Shown piece after piece: positions 10,924-20,531 of a stretch of 20,531 nucleotides of DNA; positions within the stretch are counted from its first letter, which is position 1, and every line of letters begins with the position of its first letter. The position numbers and the translations under genes are program-made. The notes beneath the pieces were generated by a model. It searched no databases and had not been told where the DNA came from. It saw only the letters and a list, made by a program, of their open reading frames with translations. This DNA comes from a virus: IMG/VR virus record IMGVR_UViG_3300034375_005763, positions 1-20,531 of that record; one strand, given 5' to 3'.

Positions 10924-11103
10924 ATGGATATAAGAAAATATAAATCTGTAGCACTGTCACATGATAGTTGCGACAAGTTAGACAGCATTAGGAAAATTAT
11001 TGTTCCTGAAGTATCAGTGTCTAGAGCAAAAGCTTTAGATATATTAATAAATGAGAAAGCGAGAAAACTAAATGGTAAACTTAGAAAGACTGAAAACAGT
11101 TAA
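10924..11103 (+). CDS. Ribbon-helix-helix-like small protein (59 aa), candidate regulator
   Basis: A 59-residue frame with the RHH pattern: a polar strand (YKSVALS, 6-12), helix 1 (HDSCDKLDSIRKII, 13-26), a turn, then helix 2 beginning at a Ser-Arg-Ala cap (SRAKALDILINEKARKL, 33-49). Arc/MetJ-like proteins of this build bind palindromic operators as dimers. The gene stands first after a divergent spacer, as phage regulators often do. It overlaps the next gene by 32 bases. It is one candidate for the protein reading the TGCGACA palindromes further right, but that link is inference. Confidence 0.7.
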   Translation: MDIRKYKSVALSHDSCDKLDSIRKIIVPEVSVSRAKALDILINEKARKLNGKLRKTENS

Positions 11104-15420: not shown

Positions 15421-15783
15421 ATGAAACCTGAGACTAAATTTTATGCACAAGTTAAAAGAAATCTTACTGAAATATCCTGGATTAGGATTGAAAACCTTAG
15501 TGTTCCTGGTACTCCCGACTTATTGGGCTATAATAATAGCGGCCACTTTTTCACTGTTGAATTAAAGTATACAAAAACAAATAAAATTAAATTTTCCCCA
15601 CACCAAATAGCCTTCCATGTGAAGCATCCTGAGAATACATTTATCATGGTTTTGGATGCCTCTTGCATGCTTCCAAAACTTTATGAGGGCAAAAGAATCC
15701 GGAATCTTGTAGCCGGAGGCCTGACTCAGGCCCCCTGTGCCACCGGTTACGACGCTTGTCGCTTGACGCTTGACGCTTTGTAA
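15421..15783 (+). CDS. VRR-NUC domain nuclease (PD-(D/E)XK type)
   Basis: The core is a minimal VRR-NUC fold: E4 in the first helix (MKPETKFYAQ), VPGTPDLLGY with the catalytic P-D (D33), FTVELKY with E47-L-K49, and SPHQIAFH with Q62. Small phage VRR-NUC proteins are thought to act as Holliday-junction or flap nucleases. ATG 15421 is used; a TTG at 15406 would add five residues, and neither has a good ribosome site. The C-terminal tail (about ATGYDACRLTLDAL) is encoded by the heptamer repeat at 15752-15778, so the repeat has extended or replaced the original end. Confidence 0.84.
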   Translation: MKPETKFYAQVKRNLTEISWIRIENLSVPGTPDLLGYNNSGHFFTVELKYTKTNKIKFSPHQIAFHVKHPENTFIMVLDASCMLPKLYEGKRIRNLVAGGLTQAPCATGYDACRLTLDAL

Positions 15784-15850
15784 TCCGAACTTTTGTAAAC
15801 AGGCAAATTGTCCTGCGTCAAAATGTCGCAGCTTGTCGCTTGACGCTTGT
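15752..15850. repeat. Heptamer cluster plus palindromic site, copy 1 of the ~80-bp repeat
   Basis: GCTTG-NN heptamers (GCTTGTC, GCTTGAC, GCTTGAC) at 15753-15778 lead, after a spacer ending AAATTGTCC, to a palindrome TGCGTCA-AAA-TGTCGCA (15814-15830; one mismatch), then more heptamers (GCTTGTC, GCTTGAC) to about 15850. The order heptamers, spacer with AATTG, palindrome recurs at 16717-16793 and 17417-17493. The first part codes the tail of the VRR-NUC protein. Confidence 0.75.
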
Positions 15851-15882
15851 AGCCGTTTGCTACGCACCAGGCTTCATGGATC

Positions 15883-16050
15883 TTAATCGCTGTCTTGCTC
15901 AGGCGCTTGTCGCTTGACGCTTGTTGCTTGCTGCTTGTCGCTTGTTGCTTCATCCTTCATCGCTTTCTCTCCTAATTTTTGTTGTCTTTGAAATTCTTTG
16001 CGCTTTTTGCGCAGCTCATCATAAAATTTTGGGTGTTTGAATACGAACAT
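15883..16050 (-). CDS. Small basic protein (55 aa) after the GP88-family gene
   Basis: ATG at 16050 follows the GP88-family stop by one base (TAATATG), so coupled translation is likely. The first 34 residues (MFVFKHPKFYDELRKKRKEFQRQQKLGEKAMKDE) look like a genuine helical basic protein; the rest (ATSDKQQATSVKRQAPEQDSD) is the translation of the heptamer repeats at 15903-15950 and is low-complexity. Repeat-coded tails on both this gene and the VRR-NUC gene on the opposite strand suggest that repeat growth between converging genes altered both ends. Function unknown. Confidence 0.5.
   Translation of the reverse strand: MFVFKHPKFYDELRKKRKEFQRQQKLGEKAMKDEATSDKQQATSVKRQAPEQDSD
15903..15951. repeat. 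Heptamer tandem repeat cluster
   Basis: About six consecutive 7-base units of the form GCTTG-NN (GCTTGTC, GCTTGAC, GCTTGTT, GCTTGCT, GCTTGTC, GCTTGTT) end in GCTTCATCC. No full TGCGACA palindrome is attached to this cluster. The units overlap the 3' end of a minus-strand frame. Confidence 0.75.
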
Positions 16051-16051
16051 A

Positions 16052-16651
16052 TTAGTGCTGTCCGTATTCAATGTTTTTAACTTCAGGATCCCAGCACGCT
16101 CTACAATCACCGCAGGCGTTGTCTTGGTCAGGTGCAGGACATGTTCGACTCTTCGTTGAAACTGTCGACGTATTGGGCCAGCTCATGACTGGCCCCTGGT
16201 CAACCATTGGAGAAGAAAAACGTATTACAAGATTGTCAGGCTTGTTGTCTAGATGGTCCTTGATCCAGGCTTCTCTAGTTGGCATCCAGTGTCGCTTGCT
16301 TGGCGTTGCCTTACAGACTTCATATATCTTGTTCAGGTGGTCCAGGTCTTGGACGTCCCCGCTGTCGTGCCATCTAAAGACATCGGGCTTTTTTGAATTA
16401 ATTAAAGTTGTCATTGCTTCAACCCAGTATGGATTCTTTAAAGCGTCCAGCCTTTTATATTGGGCCTTCTGTACAGTGCTAAATCTATACATACCTTTTA
16501 AAGCATAGCAATTGAAACAAACTGAGTCTTTAATTAGTCTTAACTTTGCGCCGGTCTTGCACTCTTTGGCAGGTATACCAATTGACCAGCCCGGCATTTT
16601 TGAGGGCTTACTTAGTCCACCGACTAGGGCCCAGGCTTCTTTAGTATTCAT
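16052..16651 (-). CDS. GP88-family phage protein (199 aa), probable Fe-S or zinc protein
   Basis: The sequence matches my memory of the phage GP88 (mycobacteriophage gene 88-like) family: NTKEAWALVGGLSKPSKMPGW at the start, SVCFNCYALKGMYRF (43-57), FRWHDSGDVQ (92-101), HWMPTREAW and a C-terminal CPAPDQDNACGDCRACW. Eight cysteines (31, 45, 48, 113, 171, 180, 183, 186) could bind a [4Fe-4S] cluster or zinc. Biochemical function is unknown. Strong AAGGAG 8 bases before the ATG, with the same leader style as the right-hand gene array (CCAAGGAGTAAAAA). A plus-strand frame over the same region (16071-16508) is a shadow. Confidence 0.82.
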   Translation of the reverse strand: MNTKEAWALVGGLSKPSKMPGWSIGIPAKECKTGAKLRLIKDSVCFNCYALKGMYRFSTVQKAQYKRLDALKNPYWVEAMTTLINSKKPDVFRWHDSGDVQDLDHLNKIYEVCKATPSKRHWMPTREAWIKDHLDNKPDNLVIRFSSPMVDQGPVMSWPNTSTVSTKSRTCPAPDQDNACGDCRACWDPEVKNIEYGQH

Positions 16652-16675: not shown

Positions 16676-16723
16676 ATTATATTAAACTAATTATTTTTTT
16701 ATTCACCTTACATAATTGTCACA
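16676..16723 (-). promoter_or_regulatory. Degenerate box/-10 promoter of the GP88-family gene
   Basis: Read on the minus strand: TGTGACA (16723-16717; one change from TGCGACA), then TAATAT (16684-16679) 39 bases later, overlapping a TATAAT (16681-16676). The spacing equals that of the right-hand promoter modules (39-40), and the leader has the same CCAAGGAGTAAAA form. No TG of an extended -10 and no dyad. The match is weaker than for the other copies. Confidence 0.45.
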
Positions 16724-16812
16724 GCTTGTCGCTTGATGCTTGATGCTTGACGCTTGAGTCAAGAAACAAATTGACGCGCGACAATTTGTCGCAGCTTGTC
16801 GCTTGATGCTTA
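16717..16812. repeat. Heptamer cluster plus palindromic site, copy 2 of the ~80-bp repeat
   Basis: TTGTCACA followed by GCTTGTC, GCTTGAT, GCTTGAT, GCTTGAC and GCTTGAG heptamers (16724-16758), a spacer GTCAAGAAACAAATTGAC (itself an inverted repeat), then CGCGACA-ATT-TGTCGCA (16777-16793) and two more heptamers to 16811. It aligns unit by unit with 17417-17493 and with 15752-15830. It sits directly upstream of the GP88-family promoter. Confidence 0.78.
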
Positions 16813-16849
16813 ATTATGGACCAGCTGGCGCTCATTGCGTCTTCCAGCC

Positions 16850-17200: not shown

Positions 17201-17371
17201 TTAATTATATTTAAACATTTTTTCTAATTCCTCCATGTCTTTATTACTTGGTTTGTTATACCAAAATCTAGGAAATAAACCGTGGTAGTTTTTAGTATCT
17301 TCTACTTCATCTATTAAAGATGGCTCCTCCCAAATTTCTTTTTGTGTGTCAAATTTATTTAAATTAAACAT
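17201..17371 (-). CDS. Small acidic/aromatic protein (56 aa), probably leaderless mRNA
   Basis: A 56-codon minus-strand frame starting MFNLNKFDTQKEIWEE and ending KDMEELEKMFKYN. It has no Shine-Dalgarno, but a TGCGACA box and an extended -10 (TG-C-CATAAT) lie upstream at exactly the spacing of the right-hand promoter modules, and the predicted +1 (12 bases after the start of the -10) is the A of this ATG. That promoter is the main evidence that the frame is real. The product has no membrane span and several Trp/Tyr/Phe. Function unknown. Confidence 0.6.
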   Translation of the reverse strand: MFNLNKFDTQKEIWEEPSLIDEVEDTKNYHGLFPRFWYNKPSNKDMEELEKMFKYN

Positions 17372-17377
17372 ATTCGA

Positions 17378-17423
17378 ATTATGGCATGAATAAATTTTTT
17401 AATACATTCACATTATTGTCGCA
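17378..17423 (-). promoter_or_regulatory. Promoter module on the minus strand for the 56-aa gene
   Basis: TGCGACA (17423-17417) and, 40 bases on, CATAAT (17383-17378) preceded by TG-C (17386-17384), an extended -10. A short dyad TGAAT...ATTCA occupies the spacer where the plus-strand modules have CAATGGC...GCCATTG. The predicted start coincides with the ATG at 17371. The box is also the left end of ~80-bp repeat copy 3. Confidence 0.65.
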
Positions 17424-17515
17424 CCTTGGAGCTTGAGGCTTGAGGCTTGAAACTCTGTCAACATGACAGATTGCCCTGCGACATTTTGTCGCAGCCACTT
17501 TAGAATTATTCTAAA
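17417..17515. repeat. Heptamer cluster with palindromes, copy 3 of the ~80-bp repeat
   Basis: TTGTCGCA, then diverged heptamers (CTTGGA, GCTTGAG, GCTTGAG, GCTTGAA), a dyad TCTGTCA-ACA-TGACAGA (17454-17470), a full palindrome TGCGACA-TTT-TGTCGCA (17477-17493), and a separate 17-bp dyad TTTAGAAT-T-ATTCTAAA (17499-17515). Four inverted-repeat sites within 100 bases make this a dense protein-binding region between divergent promoters. Confidence 0.75.
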
Positions 17516-17520
17516 CTAGG

Positions 17521-17565
17521 TGCGTCAATCTGCCGATAGATAATTTTTTCTAGTCGTGCTATTAT
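17521..17565 (+). promoter_or_regulatory. Promoter module 0 (before 17592)
   Basis: TGCGTCA (17521-17527; one change from TGCGACA), then an extended -10 TG-C-TATTAT (hexamer 17560-17565) 39 bases downstream. The CAATGGC dyad is absent. Leader ...CTTAACCAAAAAGGAGTAAAT, like the leaders of the next units. Predicted start about 17572. Confidence 0.65.
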
Positions 17566-17591
17566 TTCAACTTAACCAAAAAGGAGTAAAT

Positions 17592-18554
17592 ATGACTAAA
17601 GAAAAACGACAAACACTAAATACTGAAAAACGTAAAGTTATTGGTGGTGTGTTTCAAGATCATTTTGAGAGTAAATCAAAATACAAAGCACAACATACTG
17701 ACGCAATAAAAACTTACAATGATATGCGTTCAGTTGCTAAAACAAAGATTGAACAACTTGTAAGATTTCATCAACCACAAGAAGATGTAGATACAGTTAG
17801 AACCATGATGAATAAATATGGAGAAAACAATGGTGGTCAATTACACCATGATAATTGTTTTTATGTTCAAAACTCAACACCTCGTATGGATACCGATTAC
17901 AATGGCAATCCAAAAGAAGTTTTAGATGATGTTCATATTGAGTTCAAAGCTAGTAAAGATTTTCTAACTTCTTATTATAGAGATGAGATAAGATCAAATG
18001 GTCTTGACCCAGATTATTCAGTTAGACTTGATAACAACTATGATAAAAGAAGTCCTAGTTATTATAATGCTGAAAGTGATATTAATAAATATCTAGGTTG
18101 GACAAATGACAATAACTCAAGCACAAATCAAACTATTAAGCATAAAAATAGTTGGGAAAATGATTTCAGAATTTGGGTCATTGGGAGTTCTTATTGTCAT
18201 AATAGAATGTTTCAAACTGATACTCAAGAGTATGAATGGTTTAGATCATTTGACATTGCAAAAGAAAATGTTGTTTTAGCACATAAAAAACTGTTTGATC
18301 ATATCAATGATAAAATGGATAAATTAAAACTTGGTTTAAAATCTTACCGATACTTTGATCAAGCTAAATCGTTAGCCGATAAACTTGGAGTTCCTTTAAA
18401 TGAAAGTGTACTTGACGCACATAGTTCAATGGCACTTTCAATTTATAGTCCAGAAAATTTAGCTGATCTTTTAACTGATGAAGTGGAGTTGACTAAAGAT
18501 GAAAAAATAGCAATAGCAAAAGCACAACTACAACAAGACGTTAGAGCGAACTAA
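17592..18554 (+). CDS. Unknown protein (320 aa), first gene of the accessory array
   Basis: The start at 17592 (MTKEKRQTLN) is chosen because AAGGAG lies 6 bases before it and the promoter predicts transcription from about 17572; an in-frame ATG at 17556 lies upstream of that start. The 320-residue product is hydrophilic, Asn/Asp/Tyr-rich (YDKRSPSYYNAESDINKYLGWTNDNNSS), without membrane spans or a known motif; YCHNRMFQTDTQEYEWFRSFDIAKENVVLAHKKLFDHIND looks helical. It is the largest gene in the array and ends just before promoter module 1. Function not recognised. Confidence 0.85.
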   Translation: MTKEKRQTLNTEKRKVIGGVFQDHFESKSKYKAQHTDAIKTYNDMRSVAKTKIEQLVRFHQPQEDVDTVRTMMNKYGENNGGQLHHDNCFYVQNSTPRMDTDYNGNPKEVLDDVHIEFKASKDFLTSYYRDEIRSNGLDPDYSVRLDNNYDKRSPSYYNAESDINKYLGWTNDNNSSTNQTIKHKNSWENDFRIWVIGSSYCHNRMFQTDTQEYEWFRSFDIAKENVVLAHKKLFDHINDKMDKLKLGLKSYRYFDQAKSLADKLGVPLNESVLDAHSSMALSIYSPENLADLLTDEVELTKDEKIAIAKAQLQQDVRAN

Positions 18555-18555
18555 C

Positions 18556-18601
18556 TGCGACAATCTACACAATGGCGATAACTTCGCCATTGTGTTATAC
18601 T
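18556..18601 (+). promoter_or_regulatory. Promoter module 1 (before 18630)
   Basis: TGCGACA box (18556-18562), a 12-bp hairpin/dyad ACACAATGGCGA (18567-18578) with TCGCCATTGTGT (18584-18595), and the -10 TATACT (18596-18601) 40 bases from the box, with TG before it (TGT-TATACT). No T tract, so it is not an ordinary terminator. Leader: AGGAAATTAAC...AAAGGAGTAAAA. Confidence 0.75.
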
Positions 18602-18629
18602 AAGGAAATTAACAAAAGGAGTAAAACTA

Positions 18630-18992
18630 ATGGCTGAAGAATATATATATTGTCATGGTACAAAATGCCATACCAATCACACTCAAGACAGAATAAGAGG
18701 TGTCAAGGGTTCAAAGGTTCTAAGAACCAAAAGAATAAAACAAGATGTTAATAGTAGTTGGTACAATCCTAATAATTTATATAATTATTTTTGTAGTATG
18801 AGTTGCTATAACGATTATGCAAACGCAAACATTCAGCAAATTATTGCGATTGCACCCAGACCCGAGCCACTTGAAACACCTATCGAGGTTCAAAAAATCA
18901 AGCACCCAGAATCTAATAATGGGTACTATACACAACGAGCATGGACTGAAACTAGAATTGTACCATGCGACAATATGGACAATGGCTCTTAA
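18630..18992 (+). CDS. Zinc-finger-like protein (120 aa)
   Basis: Cysteines at 8 and 13 with nearby histidines (YCHGTKCHTNHT) and a second pair at 55 and 59 (FCSMSCYNDY) resemble MYM/TRASH-type treble-clef zinc fingers, with a basic linker (RTKRIKQDV) between. The C-terminal half is Pro- and polar-rich. The last eight residues (CDNMDNGS) are encoded by the promoter module of the next gene: the TAA stop (18990-18992) is the loop of that hairpin. AAAGGAG precedes the start. The likely role is nucleic-acid or protein binding; no family was confirmed. Confidence 0.8.
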   Translation: MAEEYIYCHGTKCHTNHTQDRIRGVKGSKVLRTKRIKQDVNSSWYNPNNLYNYFCSMSCYNDYANANIQQIIAIAPRPEPLETPIEVQKIKHPESNNGYYTQRAWTETRIVPCDNMDNGS

Positions 18993-19011
18993 AGAGCCAT
19001 TGTGGTAAGAT
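18966..19011 (+). promoter_or_regulatory. Promoter module 2 (before 19038)
   Basis: TGCGACA (18966-18972), dyad CAATGGCTCT-TAA-AGAGCCATTG (18980-19002) and TG-G-TAAGAT -10 (19006-19011), box to -10 distance 40. It lies partly inside the coding end of the preceding gene. Confidence 0.75.
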
Positions 19012-19037
19012 TAGGAAATTAACCAAAGGAGTAAAAA

Positions 19038-19220
19038 ATGTACTTAATAATCGAAGAAACAACATATCAACACGTGTCAAGTTTTTATACAGTTAAAAAT
19101 CAAGACGAAAGTTTCAGCAAGGCACAAGATAAAAAAAGTGCGTTGGAATTGTTAAACGAAAAAGAAAACGTAAATTATTACGTAACAGCATTACCAGTTA
19201 AATTACAAAAGACTGGCTAG
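19038..19220 (+). CDS. Unknown small protein (60 aa)
   Basis: A 60-residue protein, MYLIIEETTYQHVSSFYTV..., probably a small alpha/beta fold: strand (YLIIEE), strand (SSFYTVK), helix (KKSALELLNEKEN), strand (NYYVTALPVKL). Strong AAAGGAGTAAAA ribosome site. It has its own promoter module upstream and another right after its stop, so it is an independent transcription unit, as expected for early accessory or anti-host genes. No family recognised. Confidence 0.78.
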   Translation: MYLIIEETTYQHVSSFYTVKNQDESFSKAQDKKSALELLNEKENVNYYVTALPVKLQKTG

Positions 19221-19266
19221 TGCGACACAATGCACAATGGCGCCTAACGGCGCCATGTGTTAAGAT
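19221..19266 (+). promoter_or_regulatory. Promoter module 3 (before 19293)
   Basis: TGCGACA (19221-19227) abuts the preceding stop; dyad ATGGCGCC-TAAC-GGCGCCAT (19237-19256), the most GC-rich of the set and missing one T in the right flank; -10 TAAGAT (19261-19266), distance 40, preceded by TG-T. Confidence 0.75.
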
Positions 19267-19292
19267 TAGGAAATTAACAAAAGGAGTAAAAA

Positions 19293-19505
19293 ATGCCAAT
19301 GCCAACATCAGTACTAAAAACTTTAATTAAATTAAGACACATGAGTGGAGAAGAAATCAGAGAATATTTCCAAAAAAGAGCAGACTTCCACAGCAAATAT
19401 CCAAATAATCCAAAATCTAAATTCACTGCAAAAGAGTGGGCTATAGATCAAGAGAAGTGGCACGGATTAAAAAACGAAAAAACCTATTCAAAACATTTTG
19501 AGTAG
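19293..19505 (+). CDS. Unknown small basic protein (70 aa)
   Basis: A 70-residue helical, basic protein (MPMPTSVLKTLIKLRHMSGEEIREYFQKRADFHSKYP...). The segment SGEEIREYFQKRADFH looks like a surface helix, and WAIDQEKWHGLKNEK a second. No cysteines or membrane span. Preceded by AAAGGAG and promoter module 3, and followed within 1-2 bases by the box of module 4. Function unknown. Confidence 0.78.
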   Translation: MPMPTSVLKTLIKLRHMSGEEIREYFQKRADFHSKYPNNPKSKFTAKEWAIDQEKWHGLKNEKTYSKHFE

Positions 19506-19506
19506 G

Positions 19507-19551
19507 TGCGACACTATGTGCAATGGCTTTAATTAGCCATTGTGCTAATAT
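19507..19551 (+). promoter_or_regulatory. Promoter module 4 (before 19578)
   Basis: TGCGACA (19507-19513), dyad CAATGGCT-TTAATT-AGCCATTG (19521-19542), TG-C-TAATAT -10 (19546-19551), distance 39. The loss of one base falls in the dyad loop. Confidence 0.75.
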
Positions 19552-19577
19552 AGGTTATTAACTTATAGGAGAAAAAA

Positions 19578-19673
19578 ATGGATTACGAAAATGATTACAA
19601 CTTACTTGAAGATGTTTCAGAAGAAATAGATGTATGGGAAGATTTAGAAGATGAAGATGAAGAACAGTTTTAA
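19578..19673 (+). CDS. Very acidic microprotein (31 aa)
   Basis: A 31-codon frame with TAGGAG 7 bases before the ATG. Sixteen residues are Asp or Glu (DLEDEDEEQF at the end) and none is basic, the opposite of most phage small proteins here, which suggests a DNA-mimic or an inhibitor of a basic protein; that is inference. Having its own promoter module, ribosome site and following module, it is most likely a true gene despite its size. Confidence 0.68.
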   Translation: MDYENDYNLLEDVSEEIDVWEDLEDEDEEQF

Positions 19674-19674
19674 C

Positions 19675-19720
19675 TGCGACACTATGTGCAATGGTGTTAA
19701 CTGCACCATTGTGCTATTAT
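19675..19720 (+). promoter_or_regulatory. Promoter module 5 (before 19746)
   Basis: TGCGACA (19675-19681), dyad CAATGGTG (19689-19696) / CACCATTG (19704-19711), TG-C-TATTAT -10 (19715-19720), distance 40. The C-to-T and G-to-A changes in the arms relative to the other copies pair with each other. Confidence 0.75.
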
Positions 19721-19745
19721 ACGTTTATTAACTAGGAGAAAGAAA

Positions 19746-20153
19746 ATGAAAACAAAACAAATAAAAAACTTTAAAATGAACGACGTTACATACAAGATGA
19801 GAAGATCAGTTATTGAAATTCTTTACACAGCAAAAAGTAAAGGAATCATACTTCCAAGAATCAATGTTAGAATAGGTGAGTCAACTCACAATTACCCAAA
19901 TGTTTTGGGTGTTGGTGGCAATCTTAATATTTGGATAACTAAAACTGCAATTGACAGAAGTTCAGATTACTTATTACACGTTGTATTACATGAGTTATGT
20001 CATGCAATTTTTAATTTACCTCATAACGAATCTTGCCCTCTAATGGCATCTGTATTAGATAAGCCTTGCACAAATGCTCAAGCATGGAAAATCTTTGAAA
20101 GTTATTATTATGAAAATGTTAAACATGCGACACAATGCGCAATGGCAAGTTAA
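19746..20153 (+). CDS. Zinc metallopeptidase-like protein (135 aa)
   Basis: HELCH (82-86) in VVLHELCHAIFNLPHNESCPLMAS is a metallopeptidase HExxH site; H93 and the following SCPLM could act as third ligand and Met-turn, a metzincin-like layout with one extra residue before the third His. A SprT-like or minigluzincin fold is the alternative. Upstream strands (INVRIGESTHNYPN, GGNLNIWITK) fit the N-terminal sheet of such enzymes. It may cut a host or phage protein. AGGAG precedes the start. The tail (ATQCAMAS) is encoded by promoter module 6, with the stop TAA inside its loop. Confidence 0.78.
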   Translation: MKTKQIKNFKMNDVTYKMRRSVIEILYTAKSKGIILPRINVRIGESTHNYPNVLGVGGNLNIWITKTAIDRSSDYLLHVVLHELCHAIFNLPHNESCPLMASVLDKPCTNAQAWKIFESYYYENVKHATQCAMAS

Positions 20154-20171
20154 TCTCCATTGTGCTATTAT
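20126..20171 (+). promoter_or_regulatory. Promoter module 6 (before 20178)
   Basis: TGCGACA (20126-20132), imperfect dyad CAATGG (20140-20145) / CCATTG (20157-20162), TG-C-TATTAT -10 (20166-20171), distance 40. Predicted +1 is the A of the ATG at 20178. The left part lies within the coding end of the metallopeptidase-like gene. Confidence 0.72.
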
Positions 20172-20177
20172 ACTAAT

Positions 20178-20309
20178 ATGAATAAAAAAGATAAAAAAGA
20201 TGATTCAAAACCAAGTGATGAATTTACCAACTGTAGATGTTGTGGCGAATACATCAGAGGAGATAACAGGTCAACAAGTGACAAAAGATATTGTGGAGAC
20301 TGTGCATAA
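20178..20309 (+). CDS. Small zinc-finger protein (43 aa), predicted leaderless
   Basis: A 43-codon frame with a charged N-terminus (MNKKDKKDDSKPSDE), then CRCC (19-22) and YCGDC (38-42), two Cys pairs that can bind one zinc ion. There is no Shine-Dalgarno; the -10 of module 6 puts transcription start on the ATG itself, the same geometry as the 56-aa minus-strand gene. Last gene before the right-end palindromes. Confidence 0.65.
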   Translation: MNKKDKKDDSKPSDEFTNCRCCGEYIRGDNRSTSDKRYCGDCA

Positions 20310-20338: not shown

Positions 20339-20427
20339 CGCGCGACAAAATGTCGCGCGGTAATAAATTTAACATGGGACAAAATGTCGCGGGCGCGACT
20401 GCATAACAGGTGCGACAAAATGTCGCA
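20339..20427. repeat. Three operator-like palindromes at the right end
   Basis: CGCGCGACA-AAA-TGTCGCGCG (20339-20359), TGGGACA-AAA-TGTCGCG (20375-20391, imperfect) and TGCGACA-AAA-TGTCGCA (20411-20427, perfect). A GC dyad GTCGCG-GG-CGCGAC lies between the second and third. No -10 follows at 40 bases, so these are not copies of the promoter module but full two-sided sites spaced 36 bases apart. Confidence 0.8.
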
Positions 20428-20430
20428 GGG

Positions 20431-20531
<101 letters not shown>

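Follow-up and report, generated by a model that had tools for sequence, protein, structure and literature searches.

The block of small genes in a 20.5-kb virus record (IMG/VR record IMGVR_UViG_3300034375_005763, all 20,531 nucleotides (nt) of which are referred to below as the window) is read here, at a probability of roughly 0.6, as an array of single-gene cassettes, with each border made of an activator-dependent promoter and the closing stem-loop of the upstream gene. Each border would be one composite element of about 75 nt with two jobs. At the DNA level, a host-type RNA polymerase would read the extended -10 element TGNTANNNT, and a protein on TGCGACAAT-NWKG-NN-AAT, at about -52 to -35, would substitute for the missing -35 element. 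At the RNA level, the spacer would form a stem-loop in transcripts arriving from the preceding gene, starting around a dozen nt past that gene's stop codon or containing it. This stem-loop would close the unit, whether it terminates, stalls or protects the RNA at its 3′ end or marks a cleavage site. A transcript initiated at the start site would lack part or all of the stem, as the hairpin is located upstream of that site or overlaps it. Each small gene would be a unit of its own, for which a start site, a regulator site common to all units and a 3′ end can be predicted.

Geometry of the predicted promoter module

All eight pairs of a TGCGACA-type box and a -10 hexamer listed in the initial annotation of this DNA were found in the window where it had placed them; seven are plus-strand pairs, the eighth is on the minus strand, and TG stands one base upstream of the hexamer in 8/8. 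The distance from box start to -10 start is 40 nt in six of these modules and 39 nt in two. TGCGACA occurs 16 times in the window as compared to 0.76 expected, and the spaced pattern of box and -10 matches six times, with a mean of 0.00 over 100 shuffles. A search of public viral contigs with a fixed pattern gave 69 stretches in 68 contigs.

From 75 loci, 236 distinct modules were collected, allowing at most one mismatch to TGCGACAAT, or two when the sequence starts TGCG. Distinctness was judged on 60-mers; overlapping loci give 360 modules, in place of which the 236 distinct 60-mers were used. Within the spacings of 39 to 41 nt imposed by the search, 209 modules have 40 nt, 23 have 39 and 4 have 41. 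An open reading frame (ORF) lies behind 216 of the 236, and 192 of these 216 have a Shine-Dalgarno-like sequence. Because loci L051-L112 were fetched by a pattern that fixes the spacing and part of the operator, the statistics on spacing and operator were taken from loci fetched by protein similarity only. There, TGN[TC]ANNNT stands at exactly 40 nt in 66 of 92 distinct TGCGACAAT contexts and at 39 nt in 2. The bare heptamer, whose occurrences partly belong to palindromes, is followed by an extended -10 at 40 nt in 80/205 cases and at 39 nt in 10, and the control TGTCGCA in 0/220 at 40 nt. The modules are confined to one stretch of 0.4 to 4 kb in 8/9 module-bearing records searched whole, the ninth having a single module; these nine were reached through loci with modules or block genes, so 9/11 records is not a frequency. 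One promoter-like type of fixed geometry, as had been proposed, is common to separate small-gene units and stands upstream of orthologues in many related contigs.

The operator extends beyond the heptamer. Sixteen representatives of 34 modules without the usual stem were taken from the protein-only loci, where the heptamer and the -10 alone were imposed. AT follows the heptamer in 14 and 15 of the 16, G stands at position 12 in 12/16, and AAT occupies positions 15 to 17 in 13, 14 and 15 of 16. This conservation in modules without the usual stem defines a putative operator of about 18 base pairs (bp), TGCGACAAT-NWKG-NN-AAT, which is not palindromic; 22 bp separate its end from the -10. With the -10 taken to start at -12 relative to the predicted starts, the operator spans about -52 to -35 with its centre at -43.5, close to the -44 anticipated for a two-sided site. 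The initial annotation had further stated that no good -35 is present. No TTGACA-N16-18-TANNNT promoter occurs in the window (there are 0 to 2 in 20-kb pieces of four related records), but weak -35-like hexamers with 9/12 matches were found in modules 1 (17537) and 7 (20142) only. A simple promoter scan gave 20 promoter-like sites as compared to 15.9±4.2 in shuffles, with no excess in the region. This geometry fits an activator-dependent extended -10 promoter with its operator at the usual place of the -35, and one protein may switch on the small-gene units together.

The hairpin and the end of the upstream gene

Most modules contain a hairpin, placed either in the spacer from box to -10 or across the -10 itself, commonly CAATGGC-loop-GCCATTG or a variant. 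A stem of at least 8 pairs is present in 142/208 modules but in only 20/1040 shuffles that preserve base composition only. Modules were also selected by their outer arms alone: a left-hand CAAT occurs in 130 distinct modules, and 92 of these, with 46 distinct inner sequences, match it with ATTG on the right. In the 92, the inner positions pair in 232/276 cases versus 173±5 when shuffled, and 0/10000 shuffles were as high. In an alignment over 11 pairs, double changes occur at 7/11 pairs and 95.2% of cells are paired, with 0/500 shuffles as high; its rows were chosen for pairing at 9/11 or more, with one parS row and one other omitted, so that it leans towards structure. The outer arms ACAATGGC/GCCATTGT are conserved in sequence in most rows of this alignment. 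Quite different stems also occur, ACTAGCCC/GGGCTAGT being one example. In 28 modules the -10 is covered or flanked by the best stem, which in eight of them has 12 to 14 perfect pairs. Loops of the cUNCGg type, present in 4/50 distinct cores, and an excess of G:T over A:C mismatches (11 versus 3) point to RNA of the sense strand, the G:T mismatches weakly.

Spacing and stem may act as two constraints at once. Several modules with a spacing of 39 or 41 differ from the others in loop length. Several modules with a GGCGCC-TAAC-GGCGCC core have ATGTG instead of ATTGTG and keep the spacing of 40 through a bulge, and the full arm is retained in the four modules with a spacing of 41. This exchange of bulge against spacing is suggestive of separate selection on the two.

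What the stem accompanies is an upstream gene end and not the promoter: it is missing from many promoters, and its presence tracks gene ends. Among 191 distinct modules (spacing 40, a box with at most one mismatch of nine, and 150 bases upstream; 45/236 were omitted), a stem of at least 6 pairs is found in 133/144 with a co-directional gene ending at or near the box, versus 20/47 without (Fisher p = 5.5e-12). In these gene-end modules, the stop codon ends 1 nt before the box in 63 and lies 27 to 29 nt into the module in 29. The 20 stemmed modules without a gene end comprise nine with the parS palindrome described below and 11 others, of which about seven are AT-rich by eye and four are not. 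The hairpin probably serves the upstream gene as a 3′-end or insulating RNA element and is contained in the promoter of the next gene. The promoter-regulon reading of the initial annotation is supported for the shared promoter-like type but is incomplete, as most spacers contain this base-pairing element following the upstream gene's end.

In the window, module 1 (17521-17565, plus strand) is the lead promoter and lacks the usual stem; it consists of the box TGCGTCA (17521-17527), the TG and TATTAT (17560-17565) at a 39-nt spacing, and precedes the family E gene at 17592-18554. Module 2 (18556-18601, plus) has its box at 18556-18562, stem arms at 18567-18578/18584-18595 and TATACT at 18596-18601, ahead of the gene at 18630-18992. 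Module 3 (18966-19011, plus) has its box at 18966-18972, arms at 18979-18989/18993-19003 and TAAGAT at 19006-19011, ahead of 19038-19220. The arms of module 4 (19221-19266, plus), 19232-19244/19249-19260, contain one bulge and are followed by TAAGAT at 19261-19266 and the gene at 19293-19505. Module 5 (19507-19551, plus; 39-nt spacing) has a hairpin identified by eye, CAATGGCT/AGCCATTG at 19521-19528/19535-19542, and TAATAT at 19546-19551 before a 31-codon gene (19578-19673). Module 6 (19675-19720, plus) has arms at 19686-19697/19703-19714 and TATTAT at 19715-19720 before the family C gene at 19746-20153, whose protein carries a HELCH motif and is metallopeptidase-like by eye, with no Pfam or PHROGs match. 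Module 7 (20126-20171, plus) lies within the 3′ end of the upstream gene, has a weaker hairpin, and places TATTAT (20166-20171) before the last small gene, 20178-20309 (family B). The ATG of this gene coincides with the predicted +1 of the module (window 20166-20178), some relatives being similar, so its mRNA may be leaderless. Module 8 (17378-17423, minus), with its box at 17423-17417 and CATAAT at 17383-17378, is the divergent promoter of the family G gene at 17201-17371 and has no stem of at least 6 pairs. The weaker copy annotated before the GP88-family gene (16723/16684) is indeed weak in the window, where it runs from 16679 to 16723 on the minus strand as TGTGACA with TAATAT 39 nt away and no TG, but it is a clean module in relatives (L125 17256 and L024).

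The genes behind the collected modules fall into 37 clusters. Their usual order is partly kept, with members present or absent in a mosaic fashion: family A is preceded by 10 families and family C by 7, and both orders are observed for the pairs A/B, B/C and C/M.

Relatives, associated motifs and candidate regulators

The small-gene block thus lies between the small and large terminase genes of an HTVC023P-type phage. Its placement follows from a DNA polymerase 74% identical over its full length to that of Pelagibacter phage HTVC027P (MN698241), which PMC12753301 assigns to the HTVC023P type, and from the gene order shared with HTVC027P: terminase small subunit (minus strand; PF03592 and phrog_51 matches), GP88-family gene (16052-16651, minus strand; PF17338 match), small plus-strand genes, and terminase large subunit. 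The latter was seen in L003, a contig 100% identical to the window in two compared proteins. The module-bearing phages are one clade of ocean viruses related to HTVC027P and SAR11 phages, with HTVC027P as the closest isolate.

TGCGACA is absent from HTVC027P (whole) and from HTVC023P (all but the first 609 bases), and no module was found in HTVC023P or 023Pt_psg01, both searched whole. The initial annotation had named absence of the pattern upstream of orthologues in related phages as grounds for rejection. Such absence is seen in HTVC027P and HTVC023P, in which TTGACA-type promoters were observed, but the box is present in many other contigs. The same region of HTVC027P contains three TTGACA-N17-TAGGAT promoters, one of which is covered by a 15-pair stem (L114 19224). 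In L213 and L170, hairpins with other arms, for instance TTAGGACTATC/GATAGTCCTAA by eye in L213, lie over TTGACA-N17-TAGGAT promoters (TTGACT in L170), one noted in each, and the gene behind resembles family D by eye. Contig L170 has both promoter types within one block. These promoters resemble the modules in their location between the terminase genes and in the hairpin laid over the promoter, and differ in that TTGAC(A/T)-N17-TAGGAT replaces the TGCGACA operator. Since the hairpin accompanies TTGACA-type promoters in relatives, borders combining promoter and stem probably existed before the TGCGACA operator. This operator appears to have taken the place of the -35 in one clade. Four findings go beyond the earlier account: the hairpin with its covariation, the extension of the operator past the heptamer, the lack of the box in HTVC027P and HTVC023P, and the palindromes that surround the block.

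One of these palindromes, TGCGACA-TTT-TGTCGCA (17477-17493), lies between the two divergent promoters, and three of the GCGACA-AAA-TGTCGC type, the middle one imperfect, lie at 20341-20427, between the block and the terminase large gene. Over 129 distinct contexts of TGCGACA-W3-TGTCGCA, whose arms were fixed by the search, pairing in the flanks is above that of shuffles at just one position, the second from the arms (69 versus a null maximum of 67). This scarcity of covariation in the flanks suggests that the palindromes are sites for a protein, formed of half-sites, rather than hairpins.

In relatives, the lead promoter can carry the parS 16-mer TGTTTCACGTGAAACA in the hairpin's place (15 distinct contexts, 10 exact and 5 with one mismatch: L006 888-903, L008 3441-3456, L009 1142-1157 and 12 further contexts; families H and N). 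This is the common parS sequence, which Table 1 of PMC7022226 lists under Hyphomonas, an alphaproteobacterium. The distance from parS to the -10 varies, as between L006 and L008, and parS is therefore treated as a motif in its own right, one that is missing from the lead promoter of the window (17521). A link of the lead promoter to host ParB is possible, and would suggest a connection between phage gene control and host chromosome segregation. Six more places outside such lead promoters match parS with one or two mismatches. A near-parS with one or two mismatches at L114 (HTVC027P) 16412-16427, L012 1438, L024 1239 and L066 2341 seems to be in frame within a gene like that at window 15421-15783 (HVKHP codons) and may be coincidence. 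Modules with a strong -10 and no ORF behind them were seen at L006 757-866, L012 3274, L018 3392, L024 3064 and L035 821, reading into AGGGGTGGGTTGGTCGGG; the one in L006 also reads into T-rich sequence and the palindrome TTTAGAATNATTCTAAA, directly ahead of the parS module. Such modules perhaps produce a short RNA or a leader.

The 59-amino-acid protein encoded at 10924-11103, put forward by the initial annotation as a ribbon-helix-helix (RHH)-like candidate regulator, is not supported in this role: it is 81% identical in L213, where the block from terminase small to terminase large is present without any TGCGACA. Its monomer is predicted to have two long helices and no strand (predicted local distance difference test score, pLDDT, 75.7), and as no significant PDB or RHH Pfam match was obtained, the RHH fold was not confirmed. 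Its 108 relatives were narrowed to the best 80; 24 of these 80 loci extend as far as GP88, terminase large, E or C, and 15 of the 24 have no module. Only L213 among the 15 reaches terminase large and so shows the whole block; the other loci reaching terminase large within the same 80, L141, L170, L189 and L196, have 5, 1, 2 and 1 modules, respectively. When the gene content of module-bearing records was set against HTVC027P, HTVC023P and half of 023Pt_psg01, no DNA-binding protein stood out clearly as specific to the clade. In the genome_contigs collection, the strict full module, with the usual stem only and 28 fixed bases, matched one contig, a 3.3-kb contig of a Saprospiraceae metagenome-assembled genome (MAG) that is perhaps a stray phage contig.

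Several further features of the region were recorded. Tandem heptads GCTTGAN/TCAAGCN occur at 15746-15960, 16716-16821 and about 17424-17452, in and around minus-strand genes and partly in frame in small ORFs. The TCAAGCN heptads at 16724-16752 (minus strand, limits by eye) are directly upstream of the weak minus-strand promoter, and the similar heptads at about 17424-17452 stand before module 8; HTVC027P has similar heptads ahead of TTGACA. A run of 53 C at 20458-20510 corresponds to about 13 C in the closely identical contig L003, so its length is either a contig-end artefact or variable. The window gave no Rfam match at the gathering score and no tRNA, and searches with five plus-strand cassette proteins and one minus-strand cassette protein assigned no family.

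Alternative explanations and known systems

A number of observations weigh against reading the borders as an activator-dependent promoter joined to a closing stem-loop. Shuffles reach a stem of 6 pairs in 176/1040 cases (17%), so some short AT-rich stems near the -10 may be chance, and many of the sequences are related, so the covariation counts are not independent events. The stem is lacking in 11 of the 144 gene-end modules, in 6 of which the upstream gene is coding 34 nt into the module, through the stem region, and, conversely, it is found in the 20 of 47 modules mentioned above that have no upstream gene end. In HTVC027P, the other two TTGACA-type promoters have no comparable stem in the fold. 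Over all loci and both strands (558 contexts), the distance from TGCGACA to TGNTANNNT also has small secondary maxima, at 28 nt in 26 contexts and at 36 nt in 24. Extended -10 promoters are able to work without an activator, and no regulator was named among the window proteins scanned. As for the action of the hairpin, a canonical intrinsic terminator with a GC stem and a T tract was considered and rejected: the longest T run downstream is 2 in 116 and 1 in 2 of the 118 hairpins examined. With no T tract, and with none of the hairpins listed by a terminator scan of the window, intrinsic termination is doubtful. In a pelagiphage of another type, no terminators were identifiable (PMC10504331).

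The box and -10 are common to modules with and without the usual stem, which is partly imposed by the search, and the outer arms are conserved in sequence; both would be expected of a pure promoter regulon, in which the palindromic spacer would be a by-product of duplicated cassettes or would serve a second protein as its dyad operator. We consider this improbable, as the inner arms covary instead of being constant, as stems such as ACTAGCCC/GGGCTAGT and those over the -10 are different altogether, as the hairpin follows gene ends, and as hairpins also lie over another promoter type in the relatives of HTVC027P. Ordinary host-type extended -10 promoters placed after weak terminators, with the box bound by a host regulator, are unlikely but would agree with the finding that no phage activator was named among the window proteins scanned. 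PMC12753301 treats an RNA polymerase gene as specific to the other phage studied and not HTVC027P; HTVC027P therefore likely uses the host polymerase, which also counts for a host regulator. Yet TGCGACA is missing from HTVC027P, HTVC023P and the searched parts of two other Pelagibacter phages, contrary to what would be expected of a host regulator common to them all, and in genome_contigs, where the strict full module and not the box alone was sought, the single MAG contig was the only match.

The 37 gene clusters, the presence and absence of their members, the 10 and 7 families preceding A and C, and the three pairs found in both orders would also be accounted for if the borders were mainly homology or structured sites for swapping small genes, for which the hairpins of integron attC sites offer an analogy, alongside the phage cassettes discussed below. 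This possibility appears slim: the usual gene order is largely kept, the window proteins scanned yielded neither a named integrase nor a named recombinase, and the 40-nt spacing and the extended -10 are left unexplained. Recombination may well be a by-product of the border elements rather than a rival to them. Phage N4 virion RNA polymerase recognises an extruded hairpin as its promoter, and the hairpins here adjoin the predicted start in most modules. That the extruded hairpin is itself the promoter is nonetheless most improbable, since the hairpin occupies two positions relative to the -10 and since, where no upstream gene ends, 27 of 47 modules combine box and -10 without a stem reaching 6 pairs; no N4-type polymerase was named in the scan, which was limited to the window proteins and not the whole genome. 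The reading as cassette borders with a promoter and a closing stem-loop is therefore preferred. An extension of it, in which the 46-bp border would be a 'dual code' selected both as DNA promoter and as RNA stem-loop, and the relatives' lead promoter would in addition be wired to ParB through parS, is more tentative.

The module is not described in the available text of the pelagiphage and promoter literature examined (PMC9599517, PMC12753301, PMC11066056, PMC10504331, PMC4503421, PMC4177764, PMC7022226, PMC2988021 and PMC4390567). On the promoter side, it resembles Pm of phage Mu, a promoter for sigma-70 polymerase at which, according to PMC4390567, a Mor dimer replaces the -35 with a site centred at -43.5, a 16-bp element with inverted repeats. 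Unlike in Mu, the site here has no inverted repeat, the -10 is extended and many promoters share the operator; no Mor-like or Mor-family protein was named among the window proteins scanned by profile. Middle promoters of phage T4, controlled by MotA/AsiA, likewise form a large regulon with a phage box in place of the -35; their MotA box lies further downstream, with its centre at -30 and a distance of 12±1 bp to the -10, and about half have an extended -10 (PMC2988021). The operator here, in contrast, ends 22 bp before the -10.

The promoter-early stem-loop (PeSL) cassettes of T4-type phages, reportedly described by Arbiol et al. in 2010 and Comeau et al. in 2014, come closest. PeSLs are described as composite elements of promoter and stem-loop that mediate shuffling in T4-type phages (PMC4503421). 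As with PeSLs, promoter and stem-loop here stand together between small variable genes, and gene content is mosaic, here as judged by sequence. The elements differ in several respects: the phage group is unrelated; the stem-loop is nested between an upstream operator and the -10; no strong sigma-70 promoter with a consensus -35 and no T tract is present; and the geometry is nearly fixed at 40 nt, with one operator common to all units. Because the consensus -35 and the T tract are missing and the phage group is different, membership is not claimed, and the PeSL cassette is best regarded as the closest known kind. The module would thereby link phage activator regulons with PeSL-like shuffling cassettes, two subjects that are usually treated separately.

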